A stretch of 41,916 nt of DNA from Nitrososphaerota archaeon (GCA_028866945.1 JAGWHE010000007.1:1-41916); one strand, 5' to 3'. Counted from the stretch's first letter, positions 20,463-41,244 are shown. The notes: generated by a model from the sequence alone, not told the origin. Numbers and translations: made by a program.

Positions 20463-20489
20463 CTTAAATCCCGACCTAACAGTTTAGGG
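20463..20489 (+). promoter_or_regulatory. TATA box and palindromic operator of cupredoxin at 20494
   Basis: CTTAAATC (20463-20470) is the TATA box. The palindrome ACCTAA-CAGT-TTAGGG (20474-20489) has 11 of 12 matches to the island consensus CCCTAA-N4-TTAGGG. It lies between TATA and the TTG start at 20494, just over the predicted transcription start, a position where bound protein would block initiation. Confidence 0.65.
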
Positions 20490-20493
20490 ACGT

Positions 20494-20934
20494 TTGAAGC
20501 GGAAGTACATCTACCTCTCACTGGAGATTATAGCCATCCTTCTGGTGACCTATCCGGTCATCTGGTCGGTGTACGCAGGGACCACCAGCGGGAACGCGCC
20601 GTTCTCCTGCCCCCCTCTGATCCCCTGCGACAACAACTCGCAGCCGGTGAGCGAGACCTGCACGACGTTCTGCGTCATAGACATACAGAACGCTCAGTTC
20701 ACGCCGGCCAACATCAACGTCACCCAGGGCGCGACCGTGGAGTGGGTCAACCTTGACTCTCTGGCTCACACCTCCTCCGCAGTCTACTCGAAGGCCTGGG
20801 ACTCGGGAGTCATCCCGCCCGGCGGACACTTTCTCCTGACAGTGAACCTCGCCCCTGGCACATATTACTACCAGTGCAACGTGCACCCGTTCATGACAGG
20901 GCAGATCAACGTCCTTCCAGCCGGCAGCACCTGA
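20494..20934 (+). CDS. membrane-tethered type-1 copper protein (amicyanin-like)
   Basis: A 146-residue cupredoxin that would carry electrons on the outer face of the membrane. An N-terminal anchor or signal (about 7-27, YLSLEIIAILLVTYPVIW) is followed by a Cys-rich linker with four cysteines (CPPLIPC, CTTFC), then the copper domain. Ligands are His92 (AHTSS), Cys128, His131 and Met134 in QCNVHPFMTG, the short C-x2-H-x2-M loop of amicyanin. The TTG start is at the leaderless distance from its TATA box, with the palindromic operator between. It is followed by a second cupredoxin; both share a Cys pair just before the first beta strand. Confidence 0.9.
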   Translation: MKRKYIYLSLEIIAILLVTYPVIWSVYAGTTSGNAPFSCPPLIPCDNNSQPVSETCTTFCVIDIQNAQFTPANINVTQGATVEWVNLDSLAHTSSAVYSKAWDSGVIPPGGHFLLTVNLAPGTYYYQCNVHPFMTGQINVLPAGST

Positions 20935-20946
20935 CTCCGACCCCTT

Positions 20947-20986
20947 CCCTAAGCCATTAGGGTCGTTTCCGATATCCTTTTTATTT
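20947..20986 (+). promoter_or_regulatory. perfect palindromic operator upstream of TATA box, cupredoxin at 21007
   Basis: CCCTAA-GCCA-TTAGGG (20947-20962) is a perfect 12-of-12 copy of the consensus. The TATA box CTTTTTATTT (20977-20986) follows 14 bases later and is 25 bases before the GTG at 21007. Here the site is upstream of TATA, a typical activator position, unlike the site at 20474. Confidence 0.65.
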
Positions 20987-21006
20987 GGCTTATCGGGATT
21001 TGTTCC

Positions 21007-21627
21007 GTGGGCTCTGGGGTTCGAGCCATCCTTGTCTTCCTAGGCGGGATGCTGTTCACAGTTGCGTTAGGTATTGCGACGCAGTACAACATGCTCGTGC
21101 TCGCCCTGGGCTCGATTGGAAGCCTGCTGTTCGCGCTCCGCGAAGGATTCGTGGTTTCCGGGGAAGAGGGCAGGGGGGCCGTCAAGCTCCCGGTCAGGTG
21201 GATTTGGTTCGTGGGCGTGGTCGCCCTTTGCCTGCTCACCCTCGCTCCGGTGCTCGGCGCCTACTCACCCGCGACGACCGCGGCCGGCGGTGGGGGAGGC
21301 GGAGGAGGAGGGGGAGGCGTTCCGTCTGGGTTGACCCCGACCTGTGGGAACCCATGCATCATAATCATCAAGAACTCTGCGTTCGGCAGCGGAGCGCAGC
21401 TTCAGAATGGGAACGGGTACATCGTGGTGAAGGCCGGAACGACGGTGACTTGGGAGAACAAAGACAACACGCAACACACCACCACTTCGACGGCCAGCCC
21501 GCCGATCTGGGACAGCGGAATCCTGAACCCCGGGCAACAGTTCTCGGAGACCTTCAACACCCCGGGCACCTTCTCCTACATCTGCAACGTCCACCCGATG
21601 GCAGGGACGGTCGTCGTAGTTTCTTAG
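21007..21627 (+). CDS. membrane-bound cupredoxin with polyglycine linker
   Basis: A 206-residue protein with three hydrophobic segments (about 6-25, 28-44 and 64-86), a run of 11 glycines (94-104) as flexible linker, then a cupredoxin domain. The Cys pair TCGNPC (113-117) repeats that of the neighbouring cupredoxin. Copper ligands are His157 (TQHTT), Cys193, His196 and Met198 in ICNVHPMAG. The spacing C-x2-H-x1-M is one residue shorter than in amicyanin-type loops, so either the Met is not the axial ligand or the site is strained. Start is GTG, fitting the TATA box at 20977-20986. It is an electron carrier by fold; partner unknown, but it lies in the oxidase island. Confidence 0.88.
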   Translation: MGSGVRAILVFLGGMLFTVALGIATQYNMLVLALGSIGSLLFALREGFVVSGEEGRGAVKLPVRWIWFVGVVALCLLTLAPVLGAYSPATTAAGGGGGGGGGGGVPSGLTPTCGNPCIIIIKNSAFGSGAQLQNGNGYIVVKAGTTVTWENKDNTQHTTTSTASPPIWDSGILNPGQQFSETFNTPGTFSYICNVHPMAGTVVVVS

Positions 21628-21643
21628 AAGTCGTTAACTCAAG

Positions 21644-22010
21644 GAGAGTCTTTTCCGTCTGCAGAAGTGACTTCACGGATACGCCAAGGGCGACTCTCGA
21701 CCCACGGTGGTTTGTCGGAGGGTCCGCCGCGGCTGGACTTGGGCTCCTCTAGAGGAACCGTGGTGGCGGGGTTCTTGTTGGCGAAGACCGACTGACGGCT
21801 CTCCGAGCCGACTGGGGTCTGACAAGAGAGGCTCCTACGGGCCAGGCGAGTGGAGCTCGACCAAGTCAGGAGGGCGAAGTGGTCCCGCTGTAGAGGCGAG
21901 GCTAGAGGGTGCTCGGAGGGCAGCAGGGCCGGATGGCCTTTGGACGATCCTCCCGAGGGATGAGTCCCTGCAAAGAAGCAAGCAAGCTTGGTCCCCGAAG
22001 AAGGTGGGGA
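21644..22010 (+). ncRNA. candidate structured RNA of unknown family
   Basis: This gene-free interval (21628-22066) holds nested complementary segments. They are 21644-21650 with 21692-21698; 21654-21658 with 21675-21679; 21717-21725 with 21942-21953 (three-base bulge); 21736-21747 with 21852-21867 (four-base bulge); the long hairpin 21774-21778/21822-21826, 21785-21789/21816-21820 and 21796-21801/21805-21810; 21956-21960 with 21965-21969; and 21992-21996 with 22006-22010. Distant helices nest without conflict, as expected of a folded RNA. The plus strand is purine-rich, so plus is preferred, but a minus-strand RNA is possible (TATA-like CGCTATACTT near 22032-22041). Archaeal SRP RNA and RNase P RNA were considered; their key conserved elements were not found convincingly. 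Ends are approximate. Confidence 0.5.
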
Positions 22011-22066
22011 GACGACGAATCGACCGAAGAAGTATAGCGTTAGAAGCGAACTAGACAGACTTGGAT

Positions 22067-23044
22067 CTAGGCGCCGCAGGCAGCCGCGTTGCTCGTACAG
22101 TAGGTGTTGGGCAGCACGACCAGGTACCCGAACATTCCGTTGGACACGTGGTAGTGGCAGAAGAACTCGTAGATGCCTGGCTGCGTCGCCTGGAAGGCAG
22201 CGACCCCGTACACCTCAGAGGAGCCAGCGGTTGTGTTCAGGTTGATCATCGTCACTTTGTTGTTGACCGGTATGTCCTCGAGCGCTGGAGGGCTCACCGT
22301 CGGCACGCCGTTCTGGGCGATCTTGAAGTTAGTGGCAGGGGAAGTCGCGGCCATCAGGGCCGTTCCGGATATGCAGTAGACCCCGGAGATTGCTGCGGAT
22401 TCCTGCGCGTAGGACCCGGTGTTGGAGCACGAACCGGTTATGCCGCCGTTGGTGACAAAGTTGTGCATGCCTGCGATGGAGTCGTTGATCTGGAAGTTGT
22501 AGTACCCGGTGTCGAGGGTGAAGGTGTGCGCATCGGTGTCGTTGTGTATGAACATGATCTGGACGACGTCACCCTGGTAGACCACGAGCTGGTTCGGACA
22601 GAACCTGTCCTGACCTGTGTTGTCGGTGTTGCACCAGTCGACCTTGTAAGCGACAGTGGATGGCTTCGTCCCAAGGGAGGACAGCGCGTTGTTCAGGCTC
22701 GCGCTCACCTGAGAGATTCCGGTGTTGGCGTTGGCCGCGCTCTGGGCGTTGTAGGCGACCGAGAGGGACGCCACCGCAATGAGTATGGCTACGACCGCGA
22801 CCGCGATTGCCGCCCATACCGTCCCTGAAGAGGCGCCACTTCCTCCGCCTCCGGCCATGGAGGGCGCACTAAGCGAACCTTGGTAAGCCGCGCCGAAGAA
22901 CAGGACCCCGGACCCGATCGGGAGAAGGATCAGCGCTGACAGCATCGCAATGAACCCAGGAGTGATGTTGACGAATACCCCGTAGAACAGGGACATGCCC
23001 GCCAAAGCCAGCAGAAGCCCGACAGAAGTTAGAGCTCGATTCAA
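22067..23044 (-). CDS. membrane-anchored cupredoxin with large ectodomain
   Basis: A 325-residue protein with three hydrophobic segments (about 5-25, 30-52 and 76-97), then an extracellular cupredoxin. Ligands are His173 (DAHTF), Cys296, His299 and Met304 in FCHYHVSNGMFG, giving C-x2-H-x4-M as in plastocyanin. Extra cysteines (138, 149, 206, 224, 316, 323) suggest disulfides. The domain is interrupted by a long Asn/Ser/Ala-rich insertion (about 185-250). TTG start. The promoter carries a copy of the island palindrome between TATA and start. Probably an electron donor or a subunit II-like partner of the oxidase; the exact partner is not shown. Confidence 0.88.
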   Translation of the reverse strand: MNRALTSVGLLLALAGMSLFYGVFVNITPGFIAMLSALILLPIGSGVLFFGAAYQGSLSAPSMAGGGGSGASSGTVWAAIAVAVVAILIAVASLSVAYNAQSAANANTGISQVSASLNNALSSLGTKPSTVAYKVDWCNTDNTGQDRFCPNQLVVYQGDVVQIMFIHNDTDAHTFTLDTGYYNFQINDSIAGMHNFVTNGGITGSCSNTGSYAQESAAISGVYCISGTALMAATSPATNFKIAQNGVPTVSPPALEDIPVNNKVTMINLNTTAGSSEVYGVAAFQATQPGIYEFFCHYHVSNGMFGYLVVLPNTYCTSNAAACGA

Positions 23045-23058
23045 CTAGTTCTTGCCCG

Positions 23059-23090
23059 GCCTAACAGGTTAGGGAAGGTTAGTTTAAAAG
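23059..23090 (-). promoter_or_regulatory. palindromic operator and TATA box of cupredoxin 22067-23044
   Basis: On the minus strand, CTTTTAAA (23090-23083) is the TATA box. The palindrome lies at 23074-23059, read on plus as GCCTAA-CAGG-TTAGGG, 11 of 12 matches. Its inner CCTAAC-AG-GTTAGG is perfect. It lies between TATA and the TTG at 23044. A further half-site GGTTAG is at 23077-23082. Confidence 0.62.
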
Positions 23091-23229
23091 TGTTTTATTT
23101 CTCGTTCAAAATCGTCCAAACCTCGCAGGAAAAACAGACCCTAGCGCTCCTCTCTTCGGGGAATACCGCGGCACCTAAAAACCGGAGTCTGCCGTCCACT
23201 ACAAATACGGCACGCGGCCTGGTTCGATT

Positions 23230-24864
23230 GTGAAACTCGACAGACGAGGACGGCCGGCTCTTCTGTGCGTGGCGTTGGTTGCGCTCTACCTCGGGTCTCC
23301 GTTGACCGCCGCGTCTGCCGGAGGGAGTGGAGCCCCAAATGCAGCGCCAGGAATCGCGGCCGGACCTGGCACCGGGAACCCCGTAACGACCGTCGCCATC
23401 AATGCGACGACGGCGTATCCTCTCGGGGTCACCACCGATGCGTCCGGCAACGTCTGGTTCGCCGAAGACAACCTCGACTCGCTGGCGGAGTACCTCCCGT
23501 CGAACGGCACCCTGCGGACCTTCGCCCTGCCGACCCCGCATCACCTCATGTGGGTGTGGTACATGGTCTTTGACGCCGGAGGGAACCTATGGTTCTCCGA
23601 CGAATCCCAGCAGCTCCTTTGGCGCTTCGACCCCGTCAGCGGAGCCTTCGCAAACTACACGGCGGGGACAGCGCACCCCATGGTGCTTCGCTACGACCAG
23701 CCGAGGAGCAGGATGTGGTTCACTTCGCTCATAACGGGCCAGGTTGGATACTTCAACCTCTCAGGAGGCAGGGCGGCCATTGGCGCTATCGCGAACCTCA
23801 GCGCGCCGATCCCCGGGCCCGGCGTCTCCGGGATCGCGGTCGACGCCGCCGGCGACGTGTACGTGGCCGAGTCGTTTCAGGCGAAGATAGTCGAGCTGGC
23901 CGGGAGTACACTTTCGGTGATCAAGACCTGGTCGCTCCCGGCAGGCTCCCAGCCCGTGGGGTTGGCCCTGGACTCGGAGAGGGAGCGGCTCTGGTTCACG
24001 GACCACGGCTCGAGCTTCTTCGGCTATGTGGGTCTGAACTCGTCGGCCGTCGTGGAGTATCCCACCTCGCTGTACTCCGCCGGCGGGGGCTACTCGGTCA
24101 GCCTCCCCTACTGGATCGTATTGTCCTCGTCGGGGGACATCTGGTTCAACGAACACTTCGCCAACAGGATCGGGAGGTTCGATCCGGCGACGTCACAGCT
24201 CACCGAGTTCGAGATCCCCACGAACAACTCCTCCCCTCTCATGCTTTCGGTAGACGACCAGAGGGGCGCGGTCTGGTTCACCGAGTTCGCGGGGAACGCC
24301 CTCGGAGTAGTCGGCGAGAACTCAATGCTGGGGGCATCGGTCAACAACAGCCTGTCCCGGGGGACGGCCGGCCCTTCCCTGTCGCTGACCAGCACGTCCA
24401 GCCCAGTCGCCGGCTCACCGCCCACGGTTAGCGCCACTACGCAGATCACCGGGGCTCCTCAGCCCGGTTTCGAGGTCACCGTCACGCCTCAGGCAGGCGG
24501 GAATCAGATCACCCTCACCGCCTACAGGGCGGGGCCAGGTAACTACTCTGCTGCCGTGTGCTACCGGTACGAGTACTTCGGCCAGTGCGGGTATCTGGAA
24601 GTCACCGTGCCGCCCACGGCGTCGGTCCTCTCACTTCTCTACCTCATCTACGCGGCGGTCGGCCTGGCTGTCGCTGCACTCGTCCTGGTCCTCCTGCGGG
24701 GGTCGCGCAAGGACCGAGTCCGGCGCGCTGCCCCGCGAGAGCGCCTGGCAAGCACCAGGCCACCCACCCCAGCGACGACGGCCGATACCGCGGCAAGCGA
24801 AATCAACAGCCATAGCTGGGATGACCCCCCAGATGCAACGGTCAGCTTCAAAATTGCGGAGTAG
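23230..24864 (+). CDS. secreted Vgb-like beta-propeller protein, membrane anchored
   Basis: A 544-residue protein. It has a signal peptide (residues about 10-28), six or seven propeller blades of about 45 residues with the WF-rich consensus GNVWFAEDNLDSLAEY, GNLWFSDESQQLLWRFDP, GDIWFNEHFANRIGRFDP and GAVWFTEFAGNALGVVG, then an Ig-like part and a C-terminal helix (about 467-491) before basic residues. The blades match the virginiamycin-B-lyase/NHL-type propeller family; lyase activity is not implied. The last 45 residues are low-complexity and lie antisense to the neighbouring paralogue. The GTG start fits a TATA box (ACAAATAC, about 23200-23207). Confidence 0.8.
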   Translation: MKLDRRGRPALLCVALVALYLGSPLTAASAGGSGAPNAAPGIAAGPGTGNPVTTVAINATTAYPLGVTTDASGNVWFAEDNLDSLAEYLPSNGTLRTFALPTPHHLMWVWYMVFDAGGNLWFSDESQQLLWRFDPVSGAFANYTAGTAHPMVLRYDQPRSRMWFTSLITGQVGYFNLSGGRAAIGAIANLSAPIPGPGVSGIAVDAAGDVYVAESFQAKIVELAGSTLSVIKTWSLPAGSQPVGLALDSERERLWFTDHGSSFFGYVGLNSSAVVEYPTSLYSAGGGYSVSLPYWIVLSSSGDIWFNEHFANRIGRFDPATSQLTEFEIPTNNSSPLMLSVDDQRGAVWFTEFAGNALGVVGENSMLGASVNNSLSRGTAGPSLSLTSTSSPVAGSPPTVSATTQITGAPQPGFEVTVTPQAGGNQITLTAYRAGPGNYSAAVCYRYEYFGQCGYLEVTVPPTASVLSLLYLIYAAVGLAVAALVLVLLRGSRKDRVRRAAPRERLASTRPPTPATTADTAASEINSHSWDDPPDATVSFKIAE

Positions 24865-26411
24865 ATCACCCCTGCCTGGGTGGTCGCGCCCAGGGTGAGG
24901 TAGTAGCTGCCGGGGTTCAGACCATCGAGGGTAAGTGTCATGTTGGACTCCGCCAGTCCACCGGGCTGGACTGCCAGGGTCGAGCCGCCGAAATCCGCCG
25001 TCATGTTCTGAAGACTCCCCGTACCGGTGACCCCGCTTACGGAGAGAGACAGGACCGTCGAGTTGCCCCCTTCCTGGGCGAATTTGAGGGGGACTGTGAT
25101 CTTCCCCTGGGTCCCCAGCGAGTAGGAGGAAGCCGGGACATTAAGCGAAAGGCGGGACGAGCCCTGCGCGGGGGACATCTCGCCGATGGCGTTCCCGCCG
25201 ATCTCAACGAACCAGAGTCTCCCGTCCGGGGCCAGGGCGACCGAATACACTCCGGCGATGGCCGATTTGCAGCAGGGGACGGGGTATTCAGTCATCGCCC
25301 CCGACGACGGCAGGAACTCTGCTACCCTGTTGCCGTAGTGCTCGCCGATCCAGACCGCGCCGCTGGGGTCGATGGCAATTCCATTCGGAAACGTCACCGA
25401 GTAGCCGTTGGCGCCGAAGGTCTGGGTCGTCCAGTACTTCACGAGGGACTTGGTGGCGACGTTGTATCTGTCGAAGGAGCTGTCGATGTGCTCCGTCACC
25501 CATAGCCCCCCCTTCTGGTCGATGGCGATGCCGCTCGGGAAGGGGAGGCTGGTGCTGACGACTTCGGTGGACCCGGTGAAGGACGTCGGGTGGCTGAGCT
25601 TGAAGACATAGGTCTGGTTGAGCGGTGCGAACTCCGTGATTCCCTGGCTCGTGCCGTTCCTCAGTTGAGAGACCACCGCTTCGCCGAGCATGTTCGCGTC
25701 GGCGGCGGTGAACCATAGGTTCCCCTTCCCGTCAAGCGCCATCCCCGCGGGGGCAGACTGGAAGATGGGGAGGTCGAAGCTGTTGAAGGCCCCCTGGGCC
25801 GGGATGAACTGGTCCAGTTGGTTGGAGAAGAGGCAGGCGACCCAGATCGAGCCAGAGGGGTCAGCCATCACCGCCCCCGGGCCGCAGGAGACCGTCTGGG
25901 AAGTCGACCCCAAGGAGACCGCGATGCCTGGGACCCCGAATTCCACTATGGCAGAGCTGCCGGCGGCGAGTTCCCCCAGCTTGTTCGCCGTCAGCTCAGT
26001 GAACCAGACATCCCCCCGGCTGTCCACTGCTACTGCGTCAGGGGTGGAGTGGTTGGTGGGAATCTGAAACTGGGCGAAGGTGCCGGCAGCTGGATTGTAC
26101 TCACCGAGCTGGTTGGTCCCCTGCTCGACGAACCATAAGTTGCCTTGGGGGTCAGACGCTATGGACCAGGGTTCGGCGTTCGCCTCAGGGATGGAGTGCT
26201 GGACGATCGAACCGCCCTCCGGCCACTCGAACCGGGCTCCTCCAGACAAAGAGGTCACCTGGGCGGTTGCGGGCAGGGCGACCGTGAGGGGGAGCAAAGC
26301 GGTGCTGATGATGAGGATGGCAACGACGGCGGTCAGTGCTCGGTGCAGGCGAGGAAGAGGGATCAGATGACTCCTTACGCCGCGATACTGGGGCAAGTTC
26401 AACACTTCCAT
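24648..26411 (-). CDS. second Vgb-like beta-propeller surface protein
   Basis: A 587-residue paralogue of the plus-strand gene it faces. A signal peptide (about 25-50, ALTAVVAILIISTALLPLTV) is followed by seven or so propeller blades (NLWFVEQGTNQLGEYNPA, DVWFTELTANKLGELAAG, NLWFTAADANMLGEAVVS, LWVTEHIDSSFDRYN), an Ig-like region about 440-530, and a C-terminal helix (LWLLISLAAVSAVVAGVGGL) with an Arg-rich tail of 30 residues. It starts 25 bases after ctaA on the same strand, so it is likely co-transcribed with heme A synthesis. It overlaps its convergent paralogue by 217 bases. Role unknown; possibly surface sensing or scaffold. Confidence 0.8.
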   Translation of the reverse strand: MEVLNLPQYRGVRSHLIPLPRLHRALTAVVAILIISTALLPLTVALPATAQVTSLSGGARFEWPEGGSIVQHSIPEANAEPWSIASDPQGNLWFVEQGTNQLGEYNPAAGTFAQFQIPTNHSTPDAVAVDSRGDVWFTELTANKLGELAAGSSAIVEFGVPGIAVSLGSTSQTVSCGPGAVMADPSGSIWVACLFSNQLDQFIPAQGAFNSFDLPIFQSAPAGMALDGKGNLWFTAADANMLGEAVVSQLRNGTSQGITEFAPLNQTYVFKLSHPTSFTGSTEVVSTSLPFPSGIAIDQKGGLWVTEHIDSSFDRYNVATKSLVKYWTTQTFGANGYSVTFPNGIAIDPSGAVWIGEHYGNRVAEFLPSSGAMTEYPVPCCKSAIAGVYSVALAPDGRLWFVEIGGNAIGEMSPAQGSSRLSLNVPASSYSLGTQGKITVPLKFAQEGGNSTVLSLSVSGVTGTGSLQNMTADFGGSTLAVQPGGLAESNMTLTLDGLNPGSYYLTLGATTQAGVIYSAILKLTVASGGSSQLWLLISLAAVSAVVAGVGGLVLARRSRGAARRTRSLRDPRRRTRTSAATARPTAA

Positions 26412-26436
26412 GCCTGGGGTGCGCAGCCTTCTCGGC

Positions 26437-26907
26437 CTATACCCGTGCGGCCAGGCTTCGTTTGTCCTCGGTATACATCAGGGCTGCGGCCACTGTGACT
26501 ATGCCGAATATCGCCGTCGCGAAGCAGAAGTGGGTCGTGGCGACCAGTGCGCTCAGCCCCGAGCCGACAACTTCTCCGCCTATCCCCACCTGTATCGGGA
26601 CAAGGATGATGGCCAGCAGCATGAGCCGAGAGGGGAGCTGAAGCCTCGGCTTCGACCTCCAGGTCTTGACGGTGGCGTATAGGATCACCAGTCCGGTGAC
26701 CACGCTGAAGAAGCGGTGGAGGTACTCAATCAGGGTGGGGTAGTTGCCCAGCGCGGGGAAGAGCGTGCCGTTGCAGAGGGGCCAGCTTGCTCCGAAGCCG
26801 ACTCCGCAACCTTCGCCGAAGTTACCCAGGGTGACGTAGGCCCCCCAGGCGTTCAGGAAATAGATGGCGATGGCCGCGGCGTAGACCCACTGCTTGGCTG
26901 TCGGCAA
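26437..26907 (-). CDS. ctaA: heme A synthase, compact archaeal form
   Basis: A 156-residue protein with four membrane helices, half the size of bacterial CtaA. It oxidises the C8 methyl group of heme O to give heme A for the terminal oxidase. Heme-ligand histidines are in EYLHRFFSVVTGL and ATTHFCFATAIFG. The conserved extracellular Cys pair is Cys34 and Cys45 (GCGVGFGASWPLCNG). Compact CtaA of this size is known from Aeropyrum. TTG start. It leads the unit ctaA - beta-propeller and is divergent from a small gene at 27003. Its partner ctaB is at 40274. Confidence 0.9.
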   Translation of the reverse strand: MPTAKQWVYAAAIAIYFLNAWGAYVTLGNFGEGCGVGFGASWPLCNGTLFPALGNYPTLIEYLHRFFSVVTGLVILYATVKTWRSKPRLQLPSRLMLLAIILVPIQVGIGGEVVGSGLSALVATTHFCFATAIFGIVTVAAALMYTEDKRSLAARV

Positions 26908-26967
26908 GGAACCTCAAAACGCGCGCCTGAGAATCTTAGTTAAGAGTTTCGAGAGGGCGCCCCATGG

Positions 26968-26975
26968 TTTATATC
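26968..26975 (+). promoter_or_regulatory. TATA box of the small gene at 27003
   Basis: TTTATATC, centred 31 bases before the ATG at 27003. It argues against the longer frame beginning at 26964, which would include the box itself. Confidence 0.5.
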
Positions 26976-27002
26976 GAAAACGGAGCAGATGGGACGACTC
27001 CC

Positions 27003-27182
27003 ATGTGTGTGATGGTATGCGAGGTCGAAGCAGACGCGCCGCTCAAGCTCGTCGCGCCTTTGATCCGGAACCACATCGTGAAGGAGACAGAGAGCGCCCT
27101 GGCACAGATCAAGGGGGTGGCGGAGGGCGCAGGGGAGCAGGATGGAGGGCCCATCGGGATGGGCGAGGCTCTTGAACAATAG
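27003..27182 (+). CDS. 59-residue protein, unknown
   Basis: Small protein MCVMVCEVEADAPLKLVAPL continuing as a hydrophilic helix and a Gly-rich end. The start is chosen from the TATA box; a longer in-frame version from 26964 is less likely. Its stop overlaps the TTG start of the next gene by 11 bases, so the two are translationally coupled. The N-terminal CxxxC could bind metal. It is short, so moderate confidence that it is real. Confidence 0.4.
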   Translation: MCVMVCEVEADAPLKLVAPLIRNHIVKETESALAQIKGVAEGAGEQDGGPIGMGEALEQ

Positions 27183-27681
27183 AACGGCGGTTCTCGCGGC
27201 CGTCGCGATCGGGGTCATCGCCATCGGCGCCGCACTCGCCTCTGGCATTCTCCCCACCCTGGGAGGAGAGACCCATACTTCATGCACTTCCTGTACCCAG
27301 GGGCCAATCGTAGACGTGATAATGCCCGCGCTAGGGAGTTCAGGGAACTTCAGCAACGCCAGCCGGATGGTGAACATGTCAGCCGGCGAGTCGAAGGCCT
27401 TCGAAGTCGACGTCTATCCTACCGCTCCGATGGAGTTCTCGATGAGCTTCAACGTCCTCCTCGCGCCGGGCCCGGGTGCCCAGACCGCGACGTCAAAGAT
27501 TGTGGCGGCCTTCAACCCCCAGAACGTCACGGCGGGGACAAACGCGAAGGGGACCACCCTGCTGACCCTGACAGTGTCCCCGACTGCGCCGGGGGGGACC
27601 TACGACGTGGTGGTGTCGGCGGCCAACCAGTCCAACAGCTCCCAGGTTTGGGGACTGTACTTCGAGATTTCAGTGGGATAA
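27172..27681 (+). CDS. membrane-anchored Ig-like protein with CTSC motif
   Basis: About 169 residues from the TTG at 27172, which has GAGG seven bases upstream; the frame is open ten codons earlier. One N-terminal membrane helix (TAVLAAVAIGVIAIGAALAS) is followed directly by HTSCTSCTQ, a CxxC, and a single beta domain of about 120 residues with sequons (MNVSAG-like, QSNSS). The C-terminal GTTLLTLTVSPTAPGGTYDV is typical of NEW/CARDB-like Ig modules. It could be a copper chaperone or thiol-redox protein given the CxxC and the neighbouring oxidase genes; that is a guess. Confidence 0.6.
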   Translation: MNNRTAVLAAVAIGVIAIGAALASGILPTLGGETHTSCTSCTQGPIVDVIMPALGSSGNFSNASRMVNMSAGESKAFEVDVYPTAPMEFSMSFNVLLAPGPGAQTATSKIVAAFNPQNVTAGTNAKGTTLLTLTVSPTAPGGTYDVVVSAANQSNSSQVWGLYFEISVG

Positions 27682-27682
27682 T

Positions 27683-27705
27683 CCCTAACTGCTAAGGCAT
27701 AAATA
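27683..27705 (+). promoter_or_regulatory. weaker palindrome and TATA box before gene 27720
   Basis: CCCTAA-CTGC-TAAGGC (27683-27698) matches the island consensus at 10 of 12 positions and runs directly into the TATA box CATAAATA (27698-27705). A second 10-of-12 copy, ACCTGA-AACA-TTAGGG, lies at 27734-27749 inside the annotated frame. Each copy is weak alone. Confidence 0.35.
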
Positions 27706-27719
27706 ACGAGGGTCAAGAA

Positions 27720-27902
27720 GTGGGAGGCACGAGACCTGAAACATTAGGGAAGCTTGCCATCGTTATGGGCGTCGGACTGTTCGCGGTCTTGATGGACACG
27801 CTCCTGATTCCGGCGGGGCCTACGGTCGACCCGATAATCGTGGGGATTACCACGCTTGTCGCCATAGTCCTGCTAGTCGCGGGCGTCGTGAAGAAGGGTT
27901 AG
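27720..27902 (+). CDS. small two-helix membrane protein
   Basis: Sixty residues from GTG 27720, or 45 from ATG 27765. Two helices: KLAIVMGVGLFAVLMDTLLI and VGITTLVAIVLLVAGVVKKG. The TATA box at 27698-27705 predicts transcription start near 27727, which would favour the ATG with a short leader containing a palindrome copy. Similar small hydrophobic proteins are often minor subunits of archaeal terminal oxidases, but nothing in the sequence proves it. Confidence 0.45.
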   Translation: MGGTRPETLGKLAIVMGVGLFAVLMDTLLIPAGPTVDPIIVGITTLVAIVLLVAGVVKKG

Positions 27903-28004
27903 TCCCACCAGGCATAACCGGAAAGACTCGGAAACGATCTTCAGGTATTCTTTCCTATAGGCTGTTCAGAACGTATCTCCGTTGAGCTACGTAGGACTGG
28001 ACTT

Positions 28005-29222
28005 TTACGGTGACTTCTCGGCAGGGTGACCGTACTGGTTGTTGTAGCCAGGGAAGCCGCTGTTTGTCTGGAAGTTGAAGCCCCACCAGAAGGAGACGCT
28101 GCTGTAGTATAGCAGGTAAGTCTCGCTCCCCTGTCCCTGGGTGATCGCGAAGGAGATGTAGTAGTCGGACGTCGACTTCGGGTTCATCTGGAGCTGGTAG
28201 TTGCTCTCCCCGAGGTTCGACAGAGAAGTGGTCGACAGGGCCCTGACGAACTCCACAGTCCAACTGTTGGTCTGGGAGTTGTAGACCCCCTTTGACTGCA
28301 CCATGTACGGGTTCATGAACTGGCTGACCCCGGTCATGCTGGAGACGTTCTGGCCGTAGAGCCCTTTGGTGTTGATGTACGGGTACTGGGAAGAACCGGG
28401 GATGCCGCCTATCTGGTAGAACGAAGTCGAATTGGCATATCCGTCGACGGCGTATGACGCGTGCGCCGATAGCCCGAAGGCAGACGTGCTCACCGCGGTC
28501 CCGTTGGGGTAGTGCAACCCAGGATAGCCCGCGTCAGAAGACGAATTGTCGGTGGGGTTGCTCTGCCACATCCAGAGCTCCGCAGACCCTCCTGAACCGG
28601 TCCCGAGTGCGCCGGTAGTCCCGGGGACCATCTTCGGCTTGTAGGAGACCTGGTACCACCCGGAGGTGTTGGCACCTGGATGAATCCCGAACATCACAAT
28701 GGCCTGCTCAGGGTAGGTGTATTGCGACCCCTGGGCGAGCTGGTAGAACCCGACGTCCTGTGGGTAGAGGCCGCCGTAGCAGCTCGAAGACGGGTAGAGG
28801 CATGTGGAGTTGTACATGCTGAAGACCCTGCCTGCAGGGTTCCCGGTGTCGTTAAGGACCGGCGCTCCTACTGACGAACCGTAGCTCGGCGAACTCCCGA
28901 CGTTGGGGAACTGCAGTTTCACCACGAGCAGAGGCGTCCCCGTCGCGTTAGTCCACGCCATCTGGACTTGGGCGAGGGTGGTCTCCCCGGACGGCGGATA
29001 GTTGCTGGACGGGATCAGCGGTACCGATTCAGTCGAGACCCCGCTCCAGAAGGCCTCCGACCCTGGGCTGCCGAGGTTGGGCGCCCCGTTGACCTGGGGG
29101 ACGTAGATCGTCGTAAGCTGGGAGGAGTATGCGTTAATCGCATAGGAAACGGTGAACATGGACACGAACAGTATAGTCACCCATGTCACTCCCACCCAGA
29201 AATATTTTGAAGTTCGTCGCAA
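28005..29222 (-). CDS. surface protein, ethylbenzene-dehydrogenase-like heme domain (CbsA-like?)
   Basis: A 405-residue protein with one N-terminal helix (about 9-30) and a large extracellular domain rich in Ser, Tyr, Asn and Gly with many sequons. The start of the ectodomain (EAFWSGVSTESVPLIPSS, then TTLAQVQMAWTNATGTPLLV) follows the pattern of the EB_dh heme-binding family, which includes the cytochrome b558/566 subunit CbsA of Sulfolobus. Possible heme ligands are His in FGIHPGANTSG and SAHASYAVDGY and Met in WMWQS; not certain. If correct it is an extracellular b-type cytochrome feeding the oxidase. TTG start; TATA box AATAAATAT near 29251-29259. Confidence 0.45.
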   Translation of the reverse strand: MRRTSKYFWVGVTWVTILFVSMFTVSYAINAYSSQLTTIYVPQVNGAPNLGSPGSEAFWSGVSTESVPLIPSSNYPPSGETTLAQVQMAWTNATGTPLLVVKLQFPNVGSSPSYGSSVGAPVLNDTGNPAGRVFSMYNSTCLYPSSSCYGGLYPQDVGFYQLAQGSQYTYPEQAIVMFGIHPGANTSGWYQVSYKPKMVPGTTGALGTGSGGSAELWMWQSNPTDNSSSDAGYPGLHYPNGTAVSTSAFGLSAHASYAVDGYANSTSFYQIGGIPGSSQYPYINTKGLYGQNVSSMTGVSQFMNPYMVQSKGVYNSQTNSWTVEFVRALSTTSLSNLGESNYQLQMNPKSTSDYYISFAITQGQGSETYLLYYSSVSFWWGFNFQTNSGFPGYNNQYGHPAEKSP

Positions 29223-29335
29223 GGACTGGCCTCCAAGACTGATTAGGGCGGATATTTATTCTTCACCTATTGTTGAGACGGGACGCCCCGGGTCACCTGT
29301 TAGGGACGTATGCTTGAAATCCTTAAGTAAAGCAA

Positions 29336-29542
29336 ATGTCGGAACCAGTCCCGTTGATGCCAGTCCTCCAGGTCGCCTCGACCTTCAGCGTCTTCGGGCT
29401 CTACTACTTCGTGTTCGGGCTCTTCGCGGCCCTGGGCCTGATCATGCTTGGGATAATCCTCCTGGCTGAGCCCGACCCGCAGTACGACCTGTCGCAGATC
29501 ATGGGGCCCGATGAGGACCCTGCAGACCAGACTGGAACTTAG
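29336..29542 (+). CDS. small membrane protein with acidic tail
   Basis: A 68-residue protein with a hydrophobic region (about 10-43, perhaps two helices: VASTFSVFGLYYFVFGLFAA and LGLIMLGIILL) and an acidic C terminus (GPDEDPADQTGT). ATG start preceded by the TATA-like CTTGAAAT. A half-site of the island palindrome (TTAGGG at 29300-29305) lies 31 bases upstream of the ATG. Function unknown; size suits a minor subunit of a respiratory complex. Confidence 0.5.
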   Translation: MSEPVPLMPVLQVASTFSVFGLYYFVFGLFAALGLIMLGIILLAEPDPQYDLSQIMGPDEDPADQTGT

Positions 29543-29545
29543 ATT

Positions 29546-30238
29546 CTACTTCCTTCCGTTCGTCGCGTCCTTCTTAGCCTGGGCTGAACGCGTGTAGTAG
29601 TATCTCATGTAAAGGAAAAGCCCTCCCCCGATGACGAAGGCGAAGACGAAGACCAACTCGTAGGCCAGCTCTCCGTTGAACCCGCCCGGTGGCCCGTACG
29701 CAATGGCCACGTTCGTGGACTCGAGCTCGACCGCCGAGGTCCCCGAGTTCTCCTCCACCATCAGCCCCGTGTTTCTGTCGAACCAGATGTGGACAGAGTC
29801 ACCCCCGGTGCCGTTCCCCGTGAACTCAATGGTCTGGAACGTCCCGGCGGGGACGGAGGCGGTGCCGTTCTTCAGGAAGCTCGCGGTCACATTCTGGAAC
29901 CTGATGTGGCCCGTGGAGAGGTTCGAAAGCGGGACCGCAGGGAAGACCGCGGGGTTGCTGACGCTGTCGGTCACGTTGATGGTGGTGATGAACGGGTTGA
30001 GGTCAGTGCCCGCTGTTATGTTCTCGAAGATGTGGAGCGCCATCGACCCGTTTCCGAACACCTCGGCGACGGAGTAGGTGATGTTCCCCACGACGCCCGA
30101 GAAGTAAGCTATGAAGCCCCCCTGTGCCGTATACGAAGCGAAGGCGCCCGCCGACGCGTAGGGAGGGGACACCGCCGCAGCCGAAGTCGCCTGGAGGACT
30201 AGTAGGAGTGCAACCGCGCCAATGAGAAAACGCAGCAA
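29546..30238 (-). CDS. secreted beta protein with C-terminal membrane anchor
   Basis: A 230-residue protein: signal peptide (LRFLIGAVALLLVLQATSAA), an extracellular domain of about 165 residues with six or more sequons (FENITAG, TINVTDS, PLSNLST, FQNVTAS), and a C-terminal helix (YELVFVFAFVIGGGLFLYMR). The strand pattern FQTIEFTGNGTGGDSVHIWF ending in DRNTGLMVEE resembles generic archaeal surface domains of the DUF3108/LolA-like kind, but no family is claimed. It converges with the small gene at 29336 with a three-base gap. Confidence 0.6.
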   Translation of the reverse strand: MLRFLIGAVALLLVLQATSAAAVSPPYASAGAFASYTAQGGFIAYFSGVVGNITYSVAEVFGNGSMALHIFENITAGTDLNPFITTINVTDSVSNPAVFPAVPLSNLSTGHIRFQNVTASFLKNGTASVPAGTFQTIEFTGNGTGGDSVHIWFDRNTGLMVEENSGTSAVELESTNVAIAYGPPGGFNGELAYELVFVFAFVIGGGLFLYMRYYYTRSAQAKKDATNGRK

Positions 30239-30286
30239 CTTCTTTCGGCCCTTGGCGCAGCGGTAATAAGGTCAGCGGGGATTTGC

Positions 30287-30796
30287 TCAGTTGCCCTGGC
30301 CGATGTCAGATGCCATGGCGTCGGAGGACTTTCCGTTCTCCAGGTACCTCTTGACCATGGAGCAGCTCCTTTCGATCCCCATCTCGACTTCCTTCTTTAT
30401 CTTGATCTTGTCGATGGCTGCACCCAGGAGACCGTAGCCCAGCTCGTAGTCGGCTTCGAAGGTCAGCTTCGTGCCGCTGTCCATCGGCTGGAAGTGGACC
30501 GCGATGTCGTTCTTCTTGAACGGGCCGTTGATCGCCTTCGTCCTGATGAGCCTGTTGTCTTCGTATTCGATGGTCTCGTTGTCCCACTCCATCTGTCTCC
30601 CGCCAAAACTGCCCGAGATCCTGAAGACCGTCCCGACCCCGAAGTTGTCCTTGACTTTGACAGGGGTCACCCTGATGCTCACGTCCTCTGGGAATGTCTT
30701 CGCTATGTGCTCTGGTCTCGCGTAGTACGCAAAAACAGCCGCGACTGGAGCCGAGATGTCAACGCTGCGGGATACTTTCGTCAACGGGCATTGCAT
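30287..30796 (-). CDS. SRPBCC (polyketide cyclase/CoxG-like) protein
   Basis: A 169-residue helix-grip protein: SRSVDISAPVAAVFAYYARP (first strand and helix), KVKDNFGVGTVFRISGSFGG, then FQPMDSGTKLTFEADYELGY and a long C-terminal helix. SRPBCC proteins bind hydrophobic ligands in a deep cavity; some (CoxG, COQ10-like) assist quinone or cofactor delivery. In an oxidase cluster a quinone- or heme-related role is plausible but unproven. Start is ATG 30796, but the TATA box (30807-30816) would place transcription near 30785, so TTG 30784 is an alternative. The operator lies upstream of the TATA box. Confidence 0.8.
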   Translation of the reverse strand: MQCPLTKVSRSVDISAPVAAVFAYYARPEHIAKTFPEDVSIRVTPVKVKDNFGVGTVFRISGSFGGRQMEWDNETIEYEDNRLIRTKAINGPFKKNDIAVHFQPMDSGTKLTFEADYELGYGLLGAAIDKIKIKKEVEMGIERSCSMVKRYLENGKSSDAMASDIGQGN

Positions 30797-30806
30797 GACT
30801 TGTATT

Positions 30807-30844
30807 GTATTTATGGATTTCTTGCAGACCCTAACACGTTCGGG
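30807..30844 (-). promoter_or_regulatory. palindromic operator and TATA box of the SRPBCC gene
   Basis: On plus, CCCTAA-CACG-TTCGGG (30829-30844) matches the consensus at 11 of 12 positions. Reading toward the gene on minus, it is followed by the TATA box CCATAAATAC (30816-30807). The site is upstream of TATA, as at 20947. Confidence 0.6.
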
Positions 30845-30851
30845 TAGCCGA

Positions 30852-31298
30852 CTATTCCAGCTGGATTCTGACCGAGTCGCTCGGAGGCGCGTTCCCTAAA
30901 TCATCCGCTTTACTTTCCCCCCTGGTCACTGAGAGGATCTTGGAGGGGGACTGTACTAGGACCTCGCCGGTGCTCCTGGACATGGTGACCACCACGGACC
31001 TGCCGACGAACAGGGTGAACCCCACCCTCTCGCCCGCCTGGCAGAAGTACATGACGCGGCCGTCCTTGTCCACCTCGAGCCTCCCCACCGACGTCCGCGC
31101 CTCGAAGATCTCTCCCGACATGGGCGCGTGCAGCTCAAGGGTCAGCTTCTCAGGGGTCTCCTTCGCCTCCCGGCCCGCCGGACCGGACGTCAGTTCGATC
31201 TGGAGCACAGGCCTGGTCCCGTCGGCCCGGAATCTGTAGGTCTTGGTCTCAAGGGGCAGCGGCGCGTCGCCTTGCGCGGATGAGATGTTGCCTGACAA
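30852..31298 (-). CDS. unknown soluble beta-rich protein
   Basis: A 148-residue hydrophilic protein from a TTG start, with no membrane helix or signal. The pattern LTLELHAPMSGEIFEARTSV, GRLEVDKDGRVMYFCQAGER and VGFTLFVGRSVVVTMSRSTG suggests a small beta-sandwich or barrel. No family recognised. A TATA-like CCAAATACC lies about 31319-31327. It lies between the coxA group and the SRPBCC gene, same strand, and may belong to the island; function unknown. Confidence 0.55.
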   Translation of the reverse strand: MSGNISSAQGDAPLPLETKTYRFRADGTRPVLQIELTSGPAGREAKETPEKLTLELHAPMSGEIFEARTSVGRLEVDKDGRVMYFCQAGERVGFTLFVGRSVVVTMSRSTGEVLVQSPSKILSVTRGESKADDLGNAPPSDSVRIQLE

Positions 31299-31370
31299 CG
31301 GAGCCGACCCTATGGCGGCGGTATTTGGCCGTTGAGGAGCTGTGCCGCTCGGATAGAGGGAACCGCGGCC

Positions 31371-31586
31371 CTAGAGGTCTTCGTCCTTTGGCCCGTTGCC
31401 CCAGGCGCCCATGAGCATGTAGGCGAACAGCACTCCGACTGCCCCCACAATGGAGATCAGAGTCAGGCCCGTGATGAGGGTGCCGAACCTGTCGAAGGGC
31501 TGCGCGTTGTAGAGGTAGTAGAGTGGGAACATCCCTAGGACGTAGATTGCCGCCCCGATGACCCAGAGTTCCTCTTTGAGTTCCAT
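31371..31586 (-). CDS. small two-helix protein at the end of the cox operon
   Basis: A 71-residue protein with two membrane helices (LWVIGAAIYVLGMFPLYYLY and LITGLTLISIVGAVGVLFAY) and an acidic end (GNGPKDEDL). Its ATG is four bases after the stop of the 59-residue gene, so it is the fourth gene of coxB-coxA-orf59-orf71. Probably a minor oxidase subunit, by position. Confidence 0.65.
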   Translation of the reverse strand: MELKEELWVIGAAIYVLGMFPLYYLYNAQPFDRFGTLITGLTLISIVGAVGVLFAYMLMGAWGNGPKDEDL

Positions 31587-31590
31587 AATA

Positions 31591-31770
31591 TCACCAGAAC
31601 GCCGCTATGGCCCCAGCCACCATCGAGATCGCGCCGCCAAGAACCATCGTCTGGACCGCCCACTGGTCCTCGAAGAAGCCCCTCGAGCTTGCGCTTCCGA
31701 TGGCCATGATCCAGAACACCCATGGAACGATGAAGACCGCGAGTGCCAAGAGCTTCCGTCGCGCCACCAT
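31591..31770 (-). CDS. 59-residue membrane protein coupled to coxA
   Basis: Reading MVARRKLLALAVFIVPWVFW at the start and MVAGAIAAFW at the end, this 59-residue protein has two membrane helices joined by SASSRGFFEDQW. Its ATG overlaps the coxA stop in the string TGATG, giving strong translational coupling. Its stop is four bases before the next gene. Such tight packing supports a real minor subunit (subunit IV-like) of the oxidase. It is below the usual length cut-off and would be missed by automatic annotation. Confidence 0.7.
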   Translation of the reverse strand: MVARRKLLALAVFIVPWVFWIMAIGSASSRGFFEDQWAVQTMVLGGAISMVAGAIAAFW

Positions 31771-33539
31771 CAGCTTCCGCCTCCTTCGCTTCCGGCAGGC
31801 TGGGCGCCCAGCTCGCTACCTCTCATCCTGTTCAGCTTTAGGACCCGGGCGATCGCCTTGGACACTCCGGCCATCCTCGACGAGCCCCTCCCTCCAGACC
31901 CGGACACCGCTGCCGGAGGCGGCAGCAGCTTGAGCCCAACGGGCGTCGCCACCCTGGAGTAGATTATGTTCGGATCGTAGGTCCCCTCGTTAATCTTCGC
32001 CTGGGTCTCGAGCGCCATCCCTGCGGTCAGCCAGGCCGGCACCGAGACAGGGTTAGGCTTGCCCATCCTCCAAGTCATGAGGACGTTGGTCGTGAACGCG
32101 ATCACCGAAATCCCAGCGAGCCATGCCCCAATCATAGCCATCTGGAACCAGGGCTCGTACAGCGCTGGCCAGGCGATCTCTCTCCTGACAGCACCTTCGA
32201 TCCCCTGAACCTTGAATGCCACTTCGAGGGCGCCCATGCCCACCGACCACCCGATGAAGTGGAAGACGCCCAGCCCGGGGGAGTACAGCTTCCTGCCGAG
32301 GAGCTCAGGTATCATCCAGTAGAGGAATGCGAAGAACGTGCCTAGTGTGAAGGTCGCCATCATGAAGTGAATGTGGGCCGGTATCCACATGGTGTTGTGG
32401 ACGGTGAAGTCGAGCGCCGGGATGGGTTGCAGTGGTTCTGCCGTTGCGCCGCCTACGATGTTACCGGCAATGGCCGCAATTATGAACAGGAGGCTGGCGT
32501 CGTATTTCGGCTTCGTGTACTTCAGGGTGATCAGGAGTATCGTCCAGATTATGACGAAGGGCACCGCGATCATCTCGGTCGCCACCTGGGCGAAGACGTC
32601 CCTGATCCACAGCGGGATCGGGTCGACTGCCATGTGGTGGATGTAGACGGACATGCTGAGGACGAACAGGACAGGGATCATGTACCGGACCATGCGCTCG
32701 CTGTAGACCGGCCTCTTCGCGTAGATGGTCACCATCCAGACCGAAAGCCCGAGCACCAGGAACGATCCGAAATAGACGAGCGGATGGCTCTCGAACCAGA
32801 ACGCGGCCCTGAAGACCTCAACGTTGGGTATGGCGAACACGTCGAATCCGAGTCCGCCCAGAGGGGACAGTATGGTCCAGATGATGGCGCCGAGGATGGT
32901 GATGATGCCGATCCCCATTGCGACGCAGTCCATGATGATGAACGAGACGGGTATGGCGAACTTCTCGTTGGGGAGCTTGTCCACGTAGGCCGTGGCAATC
33001 AGCGCGATGATCAGGAACTCGTCTCCGATGAACTGAATCAGCTCCGCGACGTAGAACGAAGCCGGGTTCTTCAGCGGAATCAGGAAGGTGAACATGTACT
33101 GTGAGTTCGACCCTATCACCATCATCAGCCCGAAGACCACGAGCCAGTGCCCGAGGTTCGCCATCCACGGCATACCGAGCTTCTTCGTCCCTCTGATGGT
33201 CGGCACCGCGTAGTAGGCGATCGAGAAGCCGAGTGTGAATATGGTCCCGAAGAACATGACCACGGCGTGGTAGGTCATCATCTGGAAGTAGGCTATGGTC
33301 GAGTAGCCGAGCTGCTGGAGCGGGAGGAGGTTGCCCGTGAAGGAGAACCCTGACTGGGTCCTGAGGTCCAGCCCGAAGGACCCGGCTATGAAGAGCCACA
33401 TCATCCCGAAGCAGACGAGTTTGATCGAGAAGTGCTTGTACTCCTTGCTGTAGATTATGCTCCGGAAGATGCTGGTGACCTTGTTGGGAACCTCGTGCTC
33501 CTCTTCCTCCGGGGTCATGGGGGCGTTGGTCTTTGACAT
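31770..33539 (-). CDS. coxA: heme-copper oxidase subunit I (B-type-like)
   Basis: A 589-residue catalytic subunit with 12 or more helices that reduces oxygen to water and pumps protons. Heme ligands are His91 (MMTYHAVVMFFG) and His389/His391 (WIPAHIHFMM), with His381 in VHNTMW nearby. Copper-B ligands are His252 (FESHPLVYFG) and His301-His302 (YIHHMAVDP), with Tyr256 as the presumed cross-linked tyrosine. HPLVY instead of HPEVY, and VHNTMWIPAHIH resembling the ba3 sequence, point to the B family, which uses only the K-type proton path. The last about 60 residues are a soluble basic, Gly/Ser-rich tail. Second gene of the operon, four bases after coxB. Confidence 0.95.
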   Translation of the reverse strand: MSKTNAPMTPEEEEHEVPNKVTSIFRSIIYSKEYKHFSIKLVCFGMMWLFIAGSFGLDLRTQSGFSFTGNLLPLQQLGYSTIAYFQMMTYHAVVMFFGTIFTLGFSIAYYAVPTIRGTKKLGMPWMANLGHWLVVFGLMMVIGSNSQYMFTFLIPLKNPASFYVAELIQFIGDEFLIIALIATAYVDKLPNEKFAIPVSFIIMDCVAMGIGIITILGAIIWTILSPLGGLGFDVFAIPNVEVFRAAFWFESHPLVYFGSFLVLGLSVWMVTIYAKRPVYSERMVRYMIPVLFVLSMSVYIHHMAVDPIPLWIRDVFAQVATEMIAVPFVIIWTILLITLKYTKPKYDASLLFIIAAIAGNIVGGATAEPLQPIPALDFTVHNTMWIPAHIHFMMATFTLGTFFAFLYWMIPELLGRKLYSPGLGVFHFIGWSVGMGALEVAFKVQGIEGAVRREIAWPALYEPWFQMAMIGAWLAGISVIAFTTNVLMTWRMGKPNPVSVPAWLTAGMALETQAKINEGTYDPNIIYSRVATPVGLKLLPPPAAVSGSGGRGSSRMAGVSKAIARVLKLNRMRGSELGAQPAGSEGGGS

Positions 33540-33543
33540 GTTA

Positions 33544-34140
33544 TCAGCTCGCGGATCCGTTCAGGATTTCAGGGGTGTTCCCACCGAGCATTTTCGACTG
33601 GAGGGCGAATCCAGCTGTTCCGTGCGGCACGACGATGATCAGCGCGTCCATCCAAGGATGTCCCAGACCCTGGGCAGTCACACCGCAGTACTCGGAGCAC
33701 ATCACGTGGTAGAGAGATTGGTTGCCCTGGAAGGTCGTCGGCTGGAAGTTCCAGGTGACGAAGTCGGTGTAGCCTGGCACAGCCATCACGCCGAACTGGA
33801 TCCCCTGGGTAGCGAAGTTCCCCTCGGTGTTCACATAGAATCCGTGGGTCACGTCCATGCTACGGACGATGAACAGTACGGGGACCCCTGCTTGAACCAC
33901 GGTCACTGTCGGAGCTCCGACGACGTGGGGGGAGAAGAGGAACTGCCACTGCTCACAGGTCACGTACACCACTTGGTAGGGGCCCTGGATCGGAGGATAG
34001 TCTGCCTGGGCGACGCCCTCCCCTACGTTGTTTGCTATCTGGTACCCGGCGTAGTCGTAGGGGGTGTAGACTACTTCAAGGACCACCACGGTCAGGAACA
34101 GTATTAACGTCCACGCAACCAAAACATTGCGTTTCTTCAA
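33544..34140 (-). CDS. coxB: heme-copper oxidase subunit II with unusual CuA loop
   Basis: A 198-residue subunit with one N-terminal helix (VLVAWTLILFLTVVVLEVVY) and an extracellular cupredoxin domain that accepts electrons into a dinuclear CuA centre. Ligands are His99 (DVTHGF), Cys148, Cys152, His161 and Met164 in CSEYCGVTAQGLGHPWM. The normal motif is C-x3-C-x3-H-x2-M; here eight residues separate Cys152 and His161, an insertion of five. TTG start; the perfect palindrome lies between TATA and start. First gene of the cox operon, so the operator would control the whole oxidase. Confidence 0.93.
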   Translation of the reverse strand: MKKRNVLVAWTLILFLTVVVLEVVYTPYDYAGYQIANNVGEGVAQADYPPIQGPYQVVYVTCEQWQFLFSPHVVGAPTVTVVQAGVPVLFIVRSMDVTHGFYVNTEGNFATQGIQFGVMAVPGYTDFVTWNFQPTTFQGNQSLYHVMCSEYCGVTAQGLGHPWMDALIIVVPHGTAGFALQSKMLGGNTPEILNGSAS

Positions 34141-34147
34141 AACGACA

Positions 34148-34176
34148 CCCTAACGCGTTAGGGTTCAATTAAAAAA
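34148..34176 (-). promoter_or_regulatory. perfect palindromic operator and TATA box of the cox operon
   Basis: CCCTAA-CGCG-TTAGGG (34148-34163) is a perfect 16-bp palindrome including its spacer. On the minus strand the TATA region TTTTTTAATTGA (34176-34165) comes first, then the palindrome, then the TTG start at 34140. The site overlaps the expected transcription start (about 34145), a repressor position. Confidence 0.7.
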
Positions 34177-41140: not shown

Positions 41141-41244
41141 TCAGCGATACTCCGTTGAGCCGAACGCCTTAGGGGCGTGTATTTTGGTCTTCCGTGGATA
41201 CTGGTGAATCATGGCGACGGTTTTCCCCGAGCCTCCGAAGAACG

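Follow-up and report, generated by a model that had tools for sequence, protein, structure and literature searches.

The window studied here is a whole 41,916-nucleotide stretch of Nitrososphaerota archaeon DNA (GCA_028866945.1, JAGWHE010000007.1:1-41916). It carries cupredoxin, SRPBCC and cytochrome oxidase (cox) genes, whose promoters share the inverted repeat CCCTAA-N4-TTAGGG (Table 1). A sequence-only reading had listed five strong and two weak copies of this dyad, placed all of them at promoters and noticed none in the first 20 kb. Pattern scanning of the 42 kb recovered all seven copies (five with at most one mismatch), and the first 20 kb contained no dyad at up to two mismatches. The strong copies and the weak copy at 27683 do lie at promoters, but the one at 27734 does not, because it is inside a small open reading frame (ORF); it is probably a chance match. 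A further weak copy (41159) had been overlooked. It precedes a UbiA gene, which probably encodes CtaB (haem O synthase), judging from its context. The weak copies at 27683 and 41159 look real.

Table 1. Putative operator copies, predicted targets and the candidate regulator, in the window (nucleotide positions) and elsewhere in the genome (contigs)
Location	Strand	Feature	Remarks
20474..20489		Operator copy, 1 mismatch	4 bp upstream of cupredoxin start codon; TATA-like CTTAAAT 5' of site; repression-type position
20494..20934	+	Amicyanin/plastocyanin-like cupredoxin (target)	NCBIfam amicyanin 2e-8, below cut-off
20947..20962		Operator copy, perfect	44 bp upstream of GTG 21007; TATA-like element 3' of site; activation-type position
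21007..21627	+	Halocyanin/amicyanin-like cupredoxin (target)	
22067..23044	-	Membrane-anchored cupredoxin/COX2-like protein (target)	Weak plastocyanin and Cu nitrite reductase matches
23059..23074		Operator copy, 1 mismatch	14 bp upstream of TTG 23044; TATA-like TTTTAAA 5'; identical in nearest relative
27683..27698		Weak operator copy, 2 mismatches	Core 12/12 kept in nearest relative; 21 bp upstream of small ORF, then ATAAATAA
27720..27902	+	Small membrane-protein ORF, ~60 aa	Present in nearest relative too; likely target of 27683
27734..27749		Weak copy, 2 mismatches	Within small ORF 27720-27902
30287..30796	-	SRPBCC (polyketide cyclase-like) protein (target)	Pfam
30829..30844		Operator copy, 1 mismatch	32 bp upstream of ATG 30796; TATA-like CATAAAT 3'; core 12/12 kept in relative
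31770..33539	-	coxA, cytochrome oxidase subunit I, within target operon	NCBIfam CtaD_CoxA 4e-36, below cut-off
33544..34140	-	coxB, cytochrome oxidase subunit II, first gene of target operon	NCBIfam CoxB 1e-5, below cut-off
34148..34163		Operator copy, perfect	7 bp upstream of coxB; TATA-like TTTTTAA 5'; repression-type position
40274..41140	-	UbiA prenyltransferase	Pfam UbiA 2e-45
41159..41174		Weak operator copy, 2 mismatches	18 bp upstream of UbiA gene; 12/12 kept in relative
C3:28346-28987	-	HTH_10 regulator, 214 aa	Outside window
C3		Intergenic region, HTH_10 regulator / V4R-like protein	Strong dyad
C3		Membrane protein-ferredoxin operon	Strong dyad
C26		Region with TIGR04053 radical SAM gene and CopD-like gene	Strong dyad
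C42		Second coxB-coxA operon	Strong dyad
C53		2-Oxoacid:ferredoxin oxidoreductase, gamma-delta subunit gene (porG)	Strong dyad
C66		CtaA-like gene and divergent aconitase	Strong dyad

The rarity of the dyad claimed in the sequence-only reading was borne out by the controls. At up to one mismatch, the 59 other permutations of the half-site gave a mean of 0.051 dyads in the window (maximum 1) and Markov sequences gave 0.017, against the five real ones. Comparison of other spacings confined the excess to spacing 4. The source genome (G000; 1.27 Mb in 73 contigs, 92% complete), of which the window makes up 3.3%, contained 11 strong dyads (at most one mismatch) versus 0 for the reversed pattern, which served as the control for genome-wide and cross-genome counts. 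The share of the window in these sites was 5/11 (p = 1.5e-5). All 11 were called intergenic, between 11 bp past and 123 bp before the predicted start, at respiratory or electron-transfer genes and at the gene of a regulator; the only one overlapping a start codon was that of the second coxB. Two-mismatch sites numbered 16 genome-wide versus 16 in the control (cumulative 27 versus 16), and this lack of bulk excess speaks for chance, a scattered repeat or an effect of compositional bias, without any regulator. However, the reversed-pattern, permuted-half-site, spacing and Markov controls gave almost no dyads, so chance is excluded as the source of the strong sites. Across 15 genomes, 82/84 sites were intergenic, and cores were kept while flanks diverged. 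The chance or repeat reading is thus refuted at the level of zero to one mismatch, and its probability is next to nil. Even among the two-mismatch sites outside the window, 6/13 were intergenic, as against ~8% expected (the sampled genome is ~92% coding). A telomere-like repeat was ruled out, the arms being inverted and single-copy rather than tandem.

Conservation was followed at orthologous promoters. Between G000 and its nearest relative (G024), the cores of seven window sites were identical at 79/83 positions, versus 441/554 in the flanks (p = 2e-4). All nine porG orthologues (71-100% identity) had a site 1-3 bp before the ATG; two porG paralogues (44-47%) had none. The porG promoters also contained a TTTAA element ~35-40 bp before the ATG and another dyad further upstream. 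We tallied base frequencies at 100 non-redundant sites, selected at up to one mismatch with the two A fixed and C left free. With both arms counted, positions 5-6 were A in 94-98% and position 7 was C in 57%. The fuller form of the dyad is CCCTAA(C)-N2-(G)TTAGGG, with the core AAC-N2-GTT.

Among the genes beside the 11 strong sites, an HTH_10 protein was the only recognisable transcription factor. Its HTH_10 domain (PF04967) scored 58.8 bits against a cut-off of 23.1 at residues 152-204; Pfam recognised this domain alone, and the N-terminal part remained unnamed. A profile search of the genome yielded no second HTH_10 protein. NCBIfam gave the protein no name, and a profile search against the PDB found nothing meaningful (best E 0.03). 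A dyad lies 82 bp upstream of the gene. From 46 genomes of the family we collected 23 orthologues (E<1e-40), of which 21 had a site at up to two mismatches within ~100 bp upstream (18 at up to one). Their promoters often carried two dyads 82-84 bp apart, one of them abutting the start codon. Three HTH_10 homologues from a different family within the order had one-mismatch sites 12-22 bp upstream; distant HTH_10 paralogues were mostly without an upstream site. Four cysteines (C31, C90, C100 and C103; C-X58-C-X9-C-X2-C) were invariant or nearly so in 20 aligned homologues, and they likely form an iron-sulphur (Fe-S) or thiol sensor.

Sites and regulator also occurred together. Genomes with an orthologue held 110 sites (control 34), a figure to which self-sites add ~1 per genome, and those without held 26 (control 50; Mann-Whitney p = 5e-6). 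The difference persisted for genomes at least 85% complete (p = 6e-4), and the complete single-contig genome G019 had neither orthologue nor dyad. Order-wide motif counts were weakly informative, since larger genomes have a higher background. The co-occurrence is support, not proof. It provides the helix-turn-helix protein of matching phyletic pattern and, together with the conserved orthologous promoters, upholds the single dimeric regulator of respiratory electron flow proposed in the sequence-only reading. The enrichment, promoter position, conservation, own-gene site in most orthologues and co-occurrence point to the dyad being, very probably, the operator of this one HTH_10 (Bat/NarO-type) regulator, to which it is predicted to bind.

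Several observations weigh against this assignment. The genomes in the co-occurrence test are not independent, some being close relatives. G024 has seven sites and G032 a porG site, and no orthologue was found in either genome (64% and 60% complete, respectively). The orthologues in G021 and G040 have no recognisable upstream site, and the motif shows a weak excess beyond the family. The cox promoters add to this list. Related cox loci in metagenome-assembled genomes, including Nitrososphaerales, were 71-93% identical over coxA. We found a coxB of this type in three genomes, the third of which (G034, 79% identical) lacks a site at this gene; four more distant cox loci (L011-L014) have none either. 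A coxB of G011, from another genus, does have a perfect site. The conservation expected at orthologous promoters held for the nearest relative and for porG, whereas at cox it is limited to the closest genomes; by this comparison, the cox link is recent and the self-regulatory site old. Finally, the four cysteines are absent from three aligned haloarchaeal homologues, and therefore the sensor is not shared.

The most conserved targets were the regulator's own gene, the V4R protein, the membrane protein-ferredoxin operon and the 2-oxoacid:ferredoxin oxidoreductase. The V4R-like protein (E 3e-4, below the curated cut-off) is encoded divergently from the regulator, and the site is common to both genes. 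NCBIfam gave no name to the membrane protein beside the regulator. Upstream of the membrane protein-ferredoxin operon of G030, two operator copies stand back to back with a 1-base overlap (L095:4368-4398). Copper proteins recur as targets in several genomes, which would also suit the operator of a different regulator, such as a DtxR/IdeR-like metal or copper sensor, with the HTH_10 gene merely one of its targets; a site at the HTH_10 promoter would be expected in that case as well. The words TTAGG and CCTAA resemble the DtxR box, but the arm order is the opposite. With its arms reversed and no such gene seen beside a site, this box was rejected as the closest match. Moreover, the HTH_10 gene was marked more consistently than any other (21/23), haloarchaeal HTH_10 homologues have a dyad with the AAC-N2-GTT core at the same position, and the targets met most often are linked to ferredoxin, not to copper. 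A different regulator is improbable on these grounds. Copper, the organising principle of the sequence-only reading, proved too narrow: the most conserved targets were the regulator itself and ferredoxin-linked genes, not mainly copper-handling genes accompanied by a copper sensor.

The distances between site and start codon fell into two groups, 1-22 bp and 32-49 bp, which recurred at orthologous promoters. A TATA-like element lay 5' of the site in the first group; in the second, the site was upstream of the TATA element or no clear TATA was seen. The OsmC-like gene of G039 was an exception. In the window, 20474, 23059 and 34148 belong to the first class, 20947 and 30829 to the second. From this arrangement we infer a dual-acting redox regulator. 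The HTH_10 protein would probably bind the dyad as a dimer on one face of the DNA. Its targets would be its own gene, the divergent V4R gene, the membrane protein-ferredoxin operon and the 2-oxoacid:ferredoxin oxidoreductase; terminal oxidases, cupredoxins and haem-assembly genes would join them in this species. A site between TATA and start should lead to repression (coxB, porG and two window cupredoxins), and one 32-49 bp upstream to activation (V4R, membrane protein-ferredoxin, SRPBCC and the 21007 cupredoxin). On leaderless or short-leader transcripts, a first-class site may block initiation, while a second-class site would adjoin the B recognition element (BRE)/TATA in an activator-like manner. 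Redox or O2 sensing could proceed via C31, C90, C100 and C103, perhaps through an Fe-S cluster. Against this division, TATA scoring was rough, start codons were predicted, and several activation-type promoters lacked a clear TATA; the protein could be a repressor only (or an activator only), the position classes being an artefact of start-codon and TATA prediction. However, orthologous promoters show both distance groups again, and the haloarchaeal sites are grouped at 1 and 38-40 bp. We therefore regard a single mode of action as possible but rather unlikely.

The statement that no archaeal operator of this kind had been described did not survive the literature search. An upstream element (UAS) is known for Bat-type regulators (PMC1502140, PMC1447603), and CGAAC-AT-GTTCG is a haloarchaeal denitrification dyad that was probed by mutagenesis in H. 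mediterranei (PMC10062603); the latter has the AAC-N2-GTT core in common with the present dyad. Bat has been linked to energy genes at low O2 (PMC1502140, PMC3184054) and has PAS and GAF domains (PMC11218638). NarO and DmsR are Bat-like regulators of haloarchaeal anaerobic respiration with no PAS/GAF (PMC11218638), and in H. mediterranei a Bat-like gene lies within a motif-bearing cluster (PMC11218638, PMC10062603). The regulator described here has the HTH_10 domain of Bat. Unlike Bat, it contains only HTH_10 in its 214 residues, and its targets are respiratory instead of purple membrane genes. The Bat UAS at bop, brp and crtB1 (Halobacterium), which we take to be ACCcnACtagTTnGG, would overlay CCCTAACNNGTTAGG at nearly every fixed base; a text search of the literature did not confirm its letters. 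The likeness to NarO/DmsR is closer in architecture: the protein is Bat-like and lacks PAS/GAF, and the denitrification dyad CGAAYATDKTYG and the dyad here, with its AAC-N2-GTT core, serve respiratory and copper-protein promoters. As in other operators of HTH_10 regulators, an N2-centred palindrome with AAC/GTT arms was found. In contrast, the flanks are CCCT/AGGG here versus CG, the targets are aerobic oxidase and ferredoxin-oxidoreductase genes versus denitrification, and the cysteine spacing does not fit the NarO motif CXnCXCX7C.

Haloarchaeal plasmids encode HTH_10 homologues 22-28% identical to the regulator. The HTH_10 genes of Natronococcus CG52 and Halomontanus rarus have an exact CGAAC-N2-GTTCG 1 bp ahead of the ATG. 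Halarchaeum CBA1220 has three copies 38-39 bp before neighbouring genes, including a TIGR04053 radical SAM gene, a family also found near the C26 site. Exact copies were missing from 7/12 haloarchaeal loci, and at 1/12 the copy was not upstream of any listed gene. These loci are supporting evidence only. The neighbouring genes with a dyad 38-40 bp upstream on the plasmids L159, L161 and L183 were DUF2249, cupin and radical SAM. On a Natribaculum luteum plasmid (L182:3986-7097), an HTH_10 homologue is directly upstream of an annotated cbb3-type oxidase subunit I.

FNR-type bacterial redox regulators combine a dyad operator, a respiratory regulon, position-dependent activation or repression and a cysteine-bearing sensor. 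The regulon here would work in a similar way, although the DNA-binding family and operator differ, and we claim no homology. We advance only tentatively the wider idea that small HTH_10 proteins may be archaea-wide, FNR-like respiratory switches from Nitrososphaerales to haloarchaea. They would share an AAC-N2-GTT code, whose flanks set specificity, and two fixed positions (start-abutting for repression and self-repression, ~38 bp upstream for activation), with differing sensors. The V4R partner and a domain with four cysteines, possibly of Fe-S type, might in Nitrososphaerales balance aerobic oxidase use against ferredoxin-dependent carbon metabolism.

The literature searched described no respiratory regulon of uncultured Nitrososphaerales. 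The regulon is real and its probable regulator has been identified; the operator variant, targets and lineage are new, while the HTH_10, Bat/NarO-like kind is known. Operator, likely regulator and target list are linked across dozens of genomes and tied to haloarchaeal Bat/NarO. Predictions follow for repressed versus activated promoters, for sensing residues and for the base positions that set specificity. The old self-regulatory site and the recent cox link make regulon rewiring visible.

A second dyad, TTTYCA-N4-TGRGAATCGT, was noted at 10 places genome-wide (forward matches, at most two mismatches; control 0), none of them in the window. It occurs in the porG promoter (L008:8148-8167) and in the HTH_10 promoter (L005:9031-9050), and it is kept in these two promoters in many genomes. 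Five copies are within ~80 bp of a CCCTAA dyad. Others stand without one, at promoters that include those of an apparent P-type ATPase, a secreted protein, malic enzyme and a DsrE-like protein, as read from the sequence. The TTTYCA dyad suggests a second regulator. In the window, two predicted secreted proteins (23269-24864 and 24648-26297) are encoded convergently and overlap in part. The first matches the virginiamycin B lyase family, and the dyad at 23059 lies upstream of its gene.

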